NCBI GenBank assembly: GCA_951813535.1
Contig: OX638345.1
Span: 1,253,029 to 1,317,028, forward strand
Length of the DNA: 64,000 nucleotides
From: an uncultured Dehalococcoidia bacterium
GTDB taxonomy: Bacteria > Chloroflexota > Dehalococcoidia > Lucifugimonadales > UBA3495
Reading direction: 5' to 3'
This document shows positions 1-53,449 of the stretch, piece by piece. Position numbers and translations under genes: made by a program. The first letter of the stretch is position 1. Each line of letters begins with the position of its first letter. Below the pieces are notes generated by a model. It made no database searches and had not been told where the DNA came from. It was given only the letters and a program-made list of their open reading frames with translations.

Positions 1-82
1 GGCGCGACTTCCGCGATCGACCATTGTCGAACCGGGGCGTCCACCATGGGCGCCCCAACTCAAAACCGAAAGGAGGCTTGCC

Positions 83-26958: not shown

Positions 26959-27429
26959 TTGCGCATCCCGATGAAAGTTGACTACGGCGTGCGCGCGCTG
27001 GTGGAACTGGCCATGCGCTACGGTGACGGCCCGGTTCAGACCGCCGCCATCGCCTACCGGCAGGGCATACCGGAACCGTACCTCGAACGGTTGATGTCCA
27101 CCCTCAACAAGAGCGGCTTCGTCCACAGTCGTCGCGGTCCCCAGGGAGGCCACCTTCTGGCTCGGGACCCGCAGGACGTCAACCTGTACGACATCATGCA
27201 GGAGCTTGACGGCAACGCATCTCCGCTTGACTGCCTGACCCTGCCCACCGACTGCATGTTCGCCGACTCGTGCGCCCAGAAGGAAATCTGGCAGACCGTC
27301 GAGGATTCCATACAGCAGGTGCTTCAGTCCACTACGCTGGCTCATCTGGCGGACCGGCAAAGCGTGCTCATCGCCGAGGGTGATCGCGGCCATCATATTT
27401 CGCAGCCGGCGCCCGTGGCTTCGGTTTGA
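26959..27429 (+). CDS. Rrf2-family transcriptional regulator (IscR/CymR-like)
   Basis: A 156-residue Rrf2 protein. The N-terminal winged helix has the family pattern VDYGVRALVELAMRYG, then AAIAYRQGIPEPYLERLMSTLNKSGFVHSRRGPQGG (in parts). Cys92, Cys99 and Cys105 are placed almost as in IscR, so an Fe-S cluster is likely. The start is TTG 26959, with GGAGG seven bases upstream; ATG 26971 would be too far. It precedes the MoeB/ThiF-cysM operon, so control of sulfur or cysteine genes, as CymR and IscR do, is a reasonable inference. Confidence 0.9.
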   Translation: MRIPMKVDYGVRALVELAMRYGDGPVQTAAIAYRQGIPEPYLERLMSTLNKSGFVHSRRGPQGGHLLARDPQDVNLYDIMQELDGNASPLDCLTLPTDCMFADSCAQKEIWQTVEDSIQQVLQSTTLAHLADRQSVLIAEGDRGHHISQPAPVASV

Positions 27430-27445: not shown

Positions 27446-27475
27446 TTGACAACTTTCCCGGCCCGACAATACACT
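27446..27475 (+). promoter_or_regulatory. Promoter of the cysteine leader-MoeB-cysM transcript
   Basis: TTGACA at 27446-27451 (perfect -35) and TACACT at 27470-27475 with an 18-base spacer. The predicted start site is near 27482, only about three bases before the leader-peptide ATG. Confidence 0.65.
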
Positions 27476-27484
27476 CCCCGCACG

Positions 27485-27535
27485 ATGTCACCCGCTCAAA
27501 TTGTGCTGGCCTGCTGCGCTTGTCCCCGCACATAG
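27485..27535 (+). CDS. Cysteine-rich leader peptide, probably leaderless (16 residues)
   Basis: The frame ATG...TAG encodes MSPAQIVLACCACPRT, with Cys at 10, 11 and 13. It has no ribosome site, but the predicted transcription start lies almost at its ATG, so it could be read from a leaderless mRNA. It is followed by a hairpin with a T-run and then by a MoeB/ThiF-like gene and cysM. Leaderless polycysteine peptides that act as cysteine-responsive attenuators upstream of sulfur genes are known in mycobacteria; that this is one is inferred from position, composition and context. Confidence 0.6.
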   Translation: MSPAQIVLACCACPRT

Positions 27536-27564
27536 GGGGTGGGCCGACTAAAAGACACTTCGAG

Positions 27565-27610
27565 CCTGCGTCCGCCGAATTCACCGCCAGACGGTTCGGG
27601 CGCAGGTTTT
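27565..27610 (+). terminator. Attenuator-like hairpin in the MoeB-cysM leader
   Basis: A 10-bp stem (CCTGCGTCCG 27565-27574 with CGGGCGCAGG 27597-27606, one G-U pair) is followed by TTTTC and lies about 45 bp before the MoeB/ThiF ATG. The 3' arm (27600-27605) could alternatively pair with CTGCGC at 27514-27519 within the Cys codons of the leader, a possible switch. Confidence 0.55.
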
Positions 27611-27650
27611 CAGTTGAATCCGTATCACCGCCAACCGGGAGGAACACAAA

Positions 27651-28499
27651 ATGGTCCAGCCCCTACGCTTGACCCCCGATCAGGTCAAACGCTACAGCCG
27701 CCACATCATCATGCAGGACGTCGGAAGCGCCGGACAGCGCAAGATGATGGAAGCCAGCGCGCTGATAATCGGGGCCGGCGGCCTGGGTTCCCCGTCTGCG
27801 GTATATCTGTCACTGGCCGGCGTGGGCAAGATCGGCATCGTCGACTTCGACGTGGTCGAGTTGTCCAACCTGCAGCGCCAGATCCTGCACCACACTCCGG
27901 ACGTCGGACGTCCGAAGGTCCAGTCGGCCAAGGACAATATCATGTCCTACAACCCGGAAGTGGACGTGGTGCTCCACGAGACCTGGCTCACTTCGGAAAA
28001 CGCTTTCGACATCATCAGCCAGTACGACATCGTCATCAACGGGGCCGACAACTTCGCCACCCGTTACCTGGTGAACGACGCCTGTTACCTGCTGAACAAG
28101 CCGCTCATCGACGGCAGCATCCTGATCTTCGACGGTCAGGCCACCGTATTTCTCCCCGGCCAGGGCTGCTACCGTTGCCTTTTCCCGGCTCCGCCGCCTC
28201 CGGGCATGGTGCCCAACTGCGCCGAGGCTGGCGTACTGGGCGCTCTCACCGGACTGGTCGGATCCATTCAGGCTACCGAAGCTCTGAAGCATATTCTCGG
28301 CATCGGTGAAAGCCTGGCCTCCCGACTGATGGTGATTGACGCGCTGAGCATGCAGTTCCGCGAAGTCCGGCTGCGTCGGAACCCCAATTGTCCGCTCTGC
28401 GGCGACCACCCGACCGTGACCGAACTCATCGACTACGAGGTGTTCTGCGGAGTGGCCGAAGCGCCCGAACCGGCAGCCATCGGCGCCGGCGCGATCTAG
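27651..28499 (+). CDS. MoeB/ThiF-family adenylyltransferase (E1-like)
   Basis: Adenylates the C-terminus of a ubiquitin-like sulfur carrier so that it can receive sulfur. The 282 residues include the ATP-binding loop GAGGLGS at 41-47, DFDVVELSNLQRQ, the CYRC and CPLC zinc pairs and the C-terminal helix region; there is no rhodanese domain. GGGAGG precedes the ATG. With cysM 45 bp downstream and an Rrf2 regulator upstream, it probably activates a CysO-like carrier for cysteine synthesis, as in actinobacteria. No carrier protein or Mec protease is encoded here. Confidence 0.9.
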   Translation: MVQPLRLTPDQVKRYSRHIIMQDVGSAGQRKMMEASALIIGAGGLGSPSAVYLSLAGVGKIGIVDFDVVELSNLQRQILHHTPDVGRPKVQSAKDNIMSYNPEVDVVLHETWLTSENAFDIISQYDIVINGADNFATRYLVNDACYLLNKPLIDGSILIFDGQATVFLPGQGCYRCLFPAPPPPGMVPNCAEAGVLGALTGLVGSIQATEALKHILGIGESLASRLMVIDALSMQFREVRLRRNPNCPLCGDHPTVTELIDYEVFCGVAEAPEPAAIGAGAI

Positions 28500-28544: not shown

Positions 28545-29492
28545 ATGACGCTCCCCACGTACAAAGGACTCATTGCCACCATCGGCAACACTCCTCTGGT
28601 GGAGTTGCAGAACCTCAGCCCAAACCCCGAGGTGCGCATCTACGCCAAGCTGGAAGGGCAGAATCCCACCGGCAGCGTCAAGGACCGCATCGGCCTCAAG
28701 ATGATCGAACGGGCCGAAGCCGACGGCGAGGTTTCGCCAAACCGCACCATCCTGGAGCCCACCTCGGGCAACACGGGCATCTCCCTGGCGATGATAGGCC
28801 GCCTCAAGGGCTACAAGGTCAAGGTGGTGATGCCGGAGAACGTCTCCGTGGAGCGCACCCAACTCCTGGAAGCCTACGGCGCGGAGATCGTCTACTCGGA
28901 CGGGACCCTGGGCACCAACGGCAGCGTTGTCATGGCCCAGGAAATGGTGGAGAAGAACCCCCACGACTACCTGATGCTCTACCAGTACGGCAACGACGGC
29001 AATCCCGACGCGCACTACGAGGGCACCGGCCAGGAGATCGTTGAAGCGCTGCCCGAAGTGGACGTGTTCGTGGCCGGCCTGGGGACCGGCGGCACGCTGA
29101 TGGGCAATGCCCGCCGCCTCAAGGAGCACCGCAGCGATATCAAGATCATCGCGGTGGCCCCGGAGCCGGATGATTTCATCTCCGGCCTCCGCCGCCTTGA
29201 AGACGGGTTCATCCCGCCGATCCTCGACATCAACCTGCTGGACAACCGCCTGCTGGTCAACAGCTTCGACTCCTTCTACATGACCAAAGCGCTGATGGAC
29301 AAGGAGGGAATCTTCGCCGGAATTTCCTCGGGGTCGGTTATTGCCGGCGCTCTGAAACACGCCGAGCGAATGGAAAGCGGAAACGTCGTATGCCTGCTCG
29401 CGGACGGTGGGTGGAAGTACCTCAGCAGCCAGTTGTGGACCCGCGATTACGAAACACTTGCCCAGGAGGCCCAGGGCAAGATCTGGTGGTAG
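28545..29492 (+). CDS. cysM: Cysteine synthase (CysM/CysK type)
   Basis: A PLP-dependent cysteine synthase of 315 residues. The Schiff-base Lys46 lies in NPTGSVKDR, the substrate loop is TSGNTGISLAM, the phosphate loop is GLGTGGTLMG, and the C-terminal LADGGWKYLSSQLW resembles actinobacterial CysM, which uses O-phosphoserine and a thiocarboxylated carrier. The adjoining MoeB/ThiF gene supports carrier-dependent synthesis, but use of O-acetylserine is not excluded. The gene is the last of the leader-MoeB-cysM operon. Confidence 0.92.
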   Translation: MTLPTYKGLIATIGNTPLVELQNLSPNPEVRIYAKLEGQNPTGSVKDRIGLKMIERAEADGEVSPNRTILEPTSGNTGISLAMIGRLKGYKVKVVMPENVSVERTQLLEAYGAEIVYSDGTLGTNGSVVMAQEMVEKNPHDYLMLYQYGNDGNPDAHYEGTGQEIVEALPEVDVFVAGLGTGGTLMGNARRLKEHRSDIKIIAVAPEPDDFISGLRRLEDGFIPPILDINLLDNRLLVNSFDSFYMTKALMDKEGIFAGISSGSVIAGALKHAERMESGNVVCLLADGGWKYLSSQLWTRDYETLAQEAQGKIWW

Positions 29493-29541: not shown

Positions 29542-29570
29542 TTGCCCGAACCTTGCGCCGATGCTATAAT
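29542..29570 (+). promoter_or_regulatory. Sigma70 promoter of the nusA-infB operon
   Basis: TTGCCC at 29542-29547, a 17-base spacer and a perfect TATAAT at 29565-29570. The predicted start near 29577 gives a leader of about 150 nt before nusA. Confidence 0.8.
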
Positions 29571-29600
29571 GCGCCCACATCACGCCCCGCTGCCGGGCAA

Positions 29601-29681
29601 AGTGAGGAAGTCTCACTATCCTTGCAGCGAGCGGTTCACGGGATCACGAAGCGGGCGGATACCCGCTTTATTTCTGTGAAC
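29601..29681 (+). promoter_or_regulatory. Structured nusA leader RNA
   Basis: Three nested or adjacent stems are visible: AGTGAG/CTCACT (29601-29606 / 29612-29617, loop GAAGT); AAGCGGG/CCCGCTT (29649-29655 / 29662-29668) followed by TATTTCT, which could terminate; and an outer GTTCAC/GTGAAC (29634-29639 / 29676-29681) enclosing the latter. This may be an attenuator for nusA autoregulation; no known riboswitch class is recognised. Confidence 0.45.
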
Positions 29682-29730
29682 GCGGTGCACATCAGATCAC
29701 TGTCGGCAGCGCGGCCGGCGGAGGACAACC

Positions 29731-53367: not shown

Positions 53368-53422
53368 ATTAGCCTCCTCGCTGGTTGGCTTGGCCGCAGG
53401 ATTGCGGCGGCATTTGGGGCAA

Positions 53423-53449
53423 TTTATACCCTAGTTACCCCTTTGTCAA
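53423..53449 (-). promoter_or_regulatory. Promoter of the reductive-dehalogenase-like gene
   Basis: TTGACA (53449-53444) and TATAAA (53428-53423) on the minus strand with a 15-base spacer, about 60 bp before the start codon. The spacer is two short of optimal; an overlapping TTGTTG gives 18. Confidence 0.65.

Follow-up and report, generated by a model that had tools for sequence, protein, structure and literature searches.

Positions 27446-27610 of the window, by which is meant the whole 64,000-nt stretch of Dehalococcoidia DNA that was analysed, very likely form a cysteine-responsive, ribosome-mediated transcription attenuator with a near-leaderless leader peptide that controls moeB-cysM. 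A related element precedes the sulfite reductase gene (sir), giving this genome two predicted Cys attenuators. A candidate cysteine attenuator had been the original prediction for this site, and its central idea was supported by the conservation of the Cys codons, their frame, the distance from the -10 box to the ATG and the hairpins in related genomes, a comparison that the original prediction had itself called for.

Anatomy of the Leader and Its Operon

The features of the locus, all on the + strand, are as follows.

26959-27429, +, Rrf2-family regulator gene, directly upstream (Pfam Rrf2, 4e-38)
27446-27451, +, -35 box TTGACA, a perfect match, kept in the leaders of relatives
27470-27475, +, -10 box TACACT, a 4/6 match after a spacer of 18 nt; relatives have TAnnnT at 17-18 nt
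27485-27535, +, leader peptide frame MSPAQIVLACCACPRT, 16 codons, from ATG 27485 to stop TAG 27533-27535
27512-27523, +, Cys codons TGC TGC (GCT) TGT, at 27512, 27515 and 27521, peptide positions 10, 11 and 13
27518-27527, +, region 1, 5' arm of hairpin 1, across the last Cys codon (1:2 partner-swap test)
27535-27547, +, region 2, predicted partner of region 1 (via 27535-27544) or of region 3 (antiterminator)
27564-27577, +, region 3, 5' arm of the terminator (folding of leaders)
27597-27606, +, region 4, 3' arm of the terminator (3:4 partner-swap test)
27607-27610, +, T-run TTTT of the intrinsic terminator, at least TTT in 29/29 rows of the moeB leader alignment A1
27637-27643, +, Shine-Dalgarno GGGAGGA of moeB, outside the hairpins and about 27 nt beyond the T-run
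27651-28499, +, moeB/thiF-type adenylyltransferase gene (Pfam ThiF, 2e-83; NCBIfam MoeB subfamily PRK05690, over cut-off)
28545-29492, +, cysteine synthase (cysK/cysM) gene (NCBIfam cysKM subfamily, 4.7e-105, over cut-off)

Most of these parts had been anticipated: the TTGACA promoter, the 16-codon frame ending around Cys-Cys-Ala-Cys, the 10-bp hairpin with its T-run (27565-27610) and the MoeB/ThiF and cysM genes behind it were all found as described, the last two by profile matches, with nusA following the cysteine synthase. The terminator hairpin pairs CCTGCGTCCG (27565-27574) with CGGGCGCAGG (27597-27606) over 10 bp including one G-U. Hairpin 1, which had not been part of the original prediction, pairs GCTTGTCCCC (27518-27527) with GGGGGTGGGC (27535-27544), and so takes in the codons for the last Cys and the Pro and, on its 3' side, the sequence that begins with the final base of the stop. 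Transcription usually starts 6-8 nt past a -10 box, and since the leader ATG lies 9 nt past this one, the predicted 5' UTR is about 0-4 nt long; it contains no ribosome-binding site. The same gap is 6-12 nt in the leaders of relatives, a near-leaderless start being predicted from sequence there as well.

Folding the single sequence was of little help. The whole 161-nt leader was as stable as its shuffles (z 0.08), and a simple terminator scan of the window did not list the terminator at 27565-27610 because its loop exceeds 8 nt, so that single-sequence folding alone gives the attenuator no support and comparative tests were used instead. Hairpin 1 of the window stood out modestly from its shuffles, 14/200 of which were equally stable, and 37/62 leaders had at most 2/200. 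An Rfam search of the window, covering T-box, SAM riboswitches and others, gave 0 matches at gathering score.

A CysO/ThiS gene was sought between moeB and cysM in the 10 relatives with gaps there, and no convincing ORF was seen; the window's genome has five ThiS-family matches at other places, and a CysO-type pathway in this genome is possible. Ahead of nusA, at window 29542-29730, there is a promoter-like TTGCCC-17-TATAAT together with inverted repeats, one of them terminator-like (29648-29669), possibly a structured nusA leader.

The moeB Leaders of Relatives

Sixty genomes, the window's own and its relatives, were searched; a moeB match was found in 57, and 50 moeB loci were read. The leader layout, i.e., TTGACA, 17 or 18 nt, TAnnnT, 6 to 12 nt, a start codon, a short Cys ORF, a hairpin and a terminator, was present upstream of moeB in 31/50 loci. 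All 29 leaders with a full promoter (L008 left aside) keep these distances. Their peptides vary freely in sequence and length over the first half (15 to 29 codons in all) and retain a Cys cluster near the end, as in CACP.T, CTCPPT, CTCTCPPT and CCNCPSK, each running to the stop codon; most alternate as (Cys-x)n-Cys instead of forming an uninterrupted poly-Cys stretch, and a C-terminal C-x-C-P-x-T is very constant within the family. The cysteines belong to the reading frame: the Cys fraction in frames 0, 1 and 2 of the 29 leaders was 0.129, 0.045 and 0.014, and at two aligned Cys codons the T and G were invariant in all 29 rows, with C or T as the third base.

Some leaders depart from the pattern. 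L035 has the peptide and hairpins with no TTGACA match, and L028 (in genome G024) is A+T-rich with the same layout. In L008, from genome G007 of the same genus, the frame is shifted and one Cys is left, while the promoter and some hairpin sequence persist; this locus is, to judge by its sequence, an attenuator in decay within the genus. The moeB tests were run without L008, as degenerate, and without L030, a near-copy of L029.

In the other 19/50 moeB loci the leader is absent or the locus truncated, as in L017. No leader precedes moeB in L004 (same genus), L021 (same family), L034 or L036-L050, the sole exception among the last group being L050, whose longer CACS frame is a possible leader. 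Most other families of the order retain moeB, mostly with cysM, and lack the leader. Relatives that keep the operon with neither Cys codons nor hairpin had been named beforehand as evidence against the attenuator, and this evidence is present in part, in L004, L021 and most other families; the genomes of L004 and L021 retain the sir leader (L108 and L110).

A Second Copy before Sulfite Reductase

A covariance model, R1, was built from 29 moeB leaders, and in this genome it returned the window element (4e-23) and one further convincing site (2.7e-8), which sits before a gene for a nitrite/sulfite reductase, with a HemD gene next in line. The predicted leader peptide there is MHSTCKSICICTCTCPPTAGAGKT. 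Across the same 60 genomes, a promoter with a near-leaderless Cys frame preceded sir in 40/50 loci (L135 was counted spurious), and L130, L132 and L146 have a sir Cys frame with a weaker promoter. The Cys fraction in frames 0, 1 and 2 of the 40 sir leaders was 0.188, 0.039 and 0.007.

The sir leaders bear on the proposal that the Rrf2 regulator encoded upstream of moeB, CymR/IscR-like, is the true cysteine or Fe-S sensor, with the peptide a bystander and the hairpin no more than a normal terminator. Its gene lies directly upstream and adjoins moeB in many relatives, and the promoter spacer is conserved inside the genus, although upstream of sir in this genome there are PhoU and ABC-transporter genes and no Rrf2 gene. 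The proposal leaves the sir leader unexplained, as it does hairpin 1 over the Cys codons and the retention of in-frame Cys while other residues vary, and we consider it quite improbable. The regulator, which matched the NCBIfam CymR and IscR profiles with both scores far under cut-off, is possibly a second control layer at the moeB promoter, and it and the attenuator could act jointly.

The sir leaders also speak to a function of the peptide itself, for instance in translational arrest or, being Cys-rich, in metal binding; the near-constant C-terminus in the family would favour such a role. The nucleotides encoding that stretch also supply hairpin 1 with its 5' arm and loop, and in sir leaders of the same genus the stop has shifted downstream (the peptide ending CPPTAGAGKT) with the hairpin unmoved. 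Some other families of the order have plain CCC or CCCC runs and no CPPT, and the N-terminal half is free to vary, all of which makes an active peptide very improbable.

In a class-wide sample of 59 sir loci (a set from which L226, of 61 nt, was omitted), a strict scan for the promoter, a near-leaderless ATG and Cys codons was positive in seven, six of which belong to the window's order. The seventh, L172, is doubtful, as its 42-aa frame lies about 450 nt from the stretch end. From another order, L074 (R1 E 2.6e-6) has a Cys leader in which all four regions differ in sequence and still pair by eye, and it was retained because the peptide, the four regions and the sir gene fit. Of the 20 weaker class-wide R1 matches, L075-L094 (E 4e-6 to 1e-2), 12 were inspected and judged to be chance.

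Specificity

The strict scan found its pattern in 28/50 moeB loci and 36/49 sir loci (one short sir locus being left out), and the means for dinucleotide-shuffled sequences were 0.01 and 0.02. On both strands of the 64-kb window, the strict promoter and near-leaderless ATG followed by C.?C occurred at the leader site only; 19 of 20 shuffled windows gave 0 matches and one gave 2, and 260,072 bases from other loci had no site by the strict scan. An exact motif, TGYRCCTGTCCNNNNACATAGGG, was found in 21 stretches among the genomes of 84,980 species. All 21 carried titles of MAGs from Chloroflexi/Chloroflexota, Dehalococcoidia or SAR202; moeB or sir follows 19 of them, and the 2 cut short by contig ends match known moeB or sir leaders. 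A further model, R2, matched 53/250 genomes of the order at one or two sites each, with 48/50 genomes listed in the window's family and 5/200 others, and its two misses in the family (G024 and G034) are of genus g12, and both have sir Cys frames (L132 and L130).

Evidence for a Switch

If the four regions form a switch, each should fit its own partner better than that of another leader. In a partner-swap test of 62 leaders (L107, L113, L134, L137 and L138 omitted), with 5000 permutations within operon type, all three expected pairings behaved in this way. For 1:2, own and swapped partners gave -16.11 and -14.12 kcal/mol (z -8.0); for 2:3, -16.82 and -15.79 kcal/mol (z -4.0); and for 3:4, -19.34 and -15.62 kcal/mol (z -12.9), with 0/5000 in each case. 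The control pairs in the same 62 leaders had no signal (1:3, z 1.2; 2:4, z -0.2). By operon type, the 2:3 pairing was equalled in 4/5000 permutations for moeB leaders and 43/5000 for sir leaders, and with cruder regions in 30 moeB leaders the figure was 131/5000.

Folding with a ribosome in place was modelled on a transcript reaching no further than region 3, the ribosome being absent, on the last Cys codon or at the stop. The expected numbers of 2:3 pairs in these three states were 2.25, 10.58 and 1.83 for moeB leaders (n=29) and 2.45, 8.37 and 0.69 for sir leaders (n=34), and for the window leader 0.1, 11.9 and 0.0. The sir folding tests omitted L135 (spurious) and L136 and L139 (GTG/TTG starts), and ribosome-state folding omitted L113, L134, L137 and L138, in which no terminator was recognised; region 3 was misassigned there for L107, L109 and L110, which were kept in the means. 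When region 2 alone was shuffled, 8.33 of 10.59 expected pairs (moeB) and 7.06 of 8.37 (sir) remained in the stalled state, so that much of the 2:3 signal reflects G-richness. On the fixed alignment A2, 88.7% of cells of the 2:3 helix were paired, vs 42-60% when it was slid, and covariation in this helix was not above shuffles; for the 1:2 helix it was 0.184 vs 0.157 shuffled (0/500).

An intrinsic terminator stands, as sequence and predicted fold, between moeB and a leader ORF that codes for the amino acid of its operon, with in-frame Cys codons and cysteine synthase downstream, and computation predicts an exclusive antiterminator chosen by ribosome position. The attenuator resembles a four-region terminator/antiterminator switch of the classical type and not the translational kind. 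The alternative, control in the mycobacterial style, holds that a stalled ribosome frees the moeB ribosome-binding site and that termination is irrelevant, and the similar target genes and leaderless Cys-rich peptide type of the mycobacterial systems, as far as PMC13236596 and PMC9031893 describe them, lend it some appeal. It is improbable, given that the T-run terminator is kept in the 29 aligned moeB leaders, that each arm pairs better with its own partner than with a swapped one, and that the moeB Shine-Dalgarno lies beyond the hairpins.

Under transcription attenuation, for which we infer the leader start site, its translation and the cysteine response from sequence, transcription would begin at the ATG or a few bases before it, and a 70S ribosome would load directly onto the 5' end, with no Shine-Dalgarno to guide it. 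With ample Cys-tRNA, the ribosome would clear the Cys codons and reach the stop, covering region 2; were it released, or had it never bound, region 1 would pair with region 2. Region 2 being occupied either way, 3:4 pairing would follow and transcription would end at the T-run. With charged tRNA-Cys scarce, the ribosome would stall on the Cys codons and cover region 1, leaving region 2 to pair with nascent region 3, which would block the terminator and allow moeB-cysM to be transcribed. The sister element would exert the same control on sulfite reductase.

Relation to Known Attenuators

The closest parallels, those of the mycobacteria, were part of the original prediction. Their leaderless Cys-rich sORFs are reported to be cysteine-responsive and to act by translational attenuation (Canestrari et al. 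2020, Mol Microbiol 114:93, as related in parts of PMC13236596, PMC9031893 and PMC9094748), and Seliverstov 2005 (PMC1262725), in the portion available, found no conserved terminator hairpins at mycobacterial Cys leaders. The parallel holds for the predicted leaderless Cys-rich short ORF ahead of cysteine/sulfur genes, and fails for translational control: unlike the mycobacterial sORFs, the leaders described here combine an intrinsic terminator that is conserved with a predicted antiterminator that competes with it, their peptides are mostly of the (Cys-x)n type, the last Cys codon is covered by a hairpin, and the phylum is a different one.

Terminator-type Cys attenuation has its own precedent in the uORFC-8-2 motif before cysS in Rhodobacterales, which, in the sections of PMC8632094 available, has two Cys codons in the first of two stems and a U-run terminator last, with read-through proposed under Cys-tRNA shortage. 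The Cys uORF in the first stem is common to both; uORFC-8-2 precedes cysS in Alphaproteobacteria, its leaderless status unstated in those sections, whereas here the operons are moeB-cysM and sir in Chloroflexota. Leaderless leader peptides are described, in the excerpts available, for trpL, ilvL and leuL, among others, of Streptomyces lividans (PMC8079986) and trpL of Sinorhizobium meliloti (PMC7298713). As predicted here, the peptide frame begins at the 5' end and holds regulatory codons, and the leader also has hairpins and, in many cases, a terminator, although these leaders, in Actinobacteria and Alphaproteobacteria, respectively, serve amino acids other than cysteine. Leaderless genes averaged 4.7% in 4/12 Chloroflexi genomes, according to the part of PMC3160421 available.

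The classical enteric trp/his/phe attenuators share the four-region terminator/antiterminator logic, unlike the present leaders in that their peptides are Shine-Dalgarno-led and serve other amino acids.

Within the accessible portion of the open-licence literature, no report was found of leader-peptide attenuation in Chloroflexota or of sulfite reductase. The kind of mechanism has precedents, in leaderless attenuators on the one hand and in Cys leader peptides on the other; the combination of a near-leaderless start, cysteine, an intrinsic terminator, two sulfur operons and Chloroflexota did not turn up in that literature and would be a new variation.

Other Near-Leaderless Frames

The pattern TTGACA-17/18-TAnnnT-6..10-ATG matched the whole genome 6 times, including the leader site (reversed control, 1), and 24 times with the sixth -35 base relaxed (reversed control, 7). 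Some matches lie at the beginning of complete genes (purF, ruvB, a MoeA-like gene and a PHP-domain gene). Another is a Tyr/Phe-rich near-leaderless frame, MNTACRKIVPGYYRPFYFYAYRNTASVIPAWEAR, followed by a terminator-like hairpin with a T-run and then a DAHP synthase gene.

G000:C1:2025868-2027190, Tyr/Phe leader and DAHP synthase (L237, L258), from the whole-genome pattern search

Near-leaderless frames with a Tyr/Phe cluster preceded DAHP synthase in 23/30 loci of this genome and its relatives (shuffled mean 0.04). The same test was positive in 0/50 loci before moeB and 1/49 before sir, and the Cys test in 1/30 before DAHP synthase; the design therefore appears for a second amino-acid class, the codons of each frame suiting its operon, and the Tyr/Phe frame is a candidate third near-leaderless attenuator of the genome.

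Two other frames were seen. On the - strand of the window, at 53411-53449 (L235), a frame of 14 codons, MPPQSCGQANQRGG, stands near-leaderless behind a consensus promoter. It overlaps the Shine-Dalgarno of a gene whose reductive-dehalogenase-like match is weak (TIGR02486, 1e-29, under cut-off), an arrangement that looks like translational coupling. A near-leaderless 22-codon frame lies before infC (IF-3) at G000:C1:2897375-2897412 (L254).

Implications

Near-leaderless peptides probably represent a general attenuation toolkit in this SAR202-type Dehalococcoidia order, with Cys leaders before sir (order-wide and probably older) and before moeB-cysM (mainly in one family), Tyr/Phe leaders before DAHP synthase, and 70S initiation at the 5' end as the sensor step for several amino acids. 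Since the design recurs for cysteine and aromatic amino acids, it may offer a simple search key for regulated operons where expression data are lacking. The short, defined leaders would also be test material for asking whether leaderless 70S initiation is coupled tightly enough for classical attenuation. For a widespread and mostly uncultured lineage, the attenuator would provide a concrete mechanism of amino-acid control, one in which sulfite reduction and cysteine synthesis would be joined under one RNA logic.
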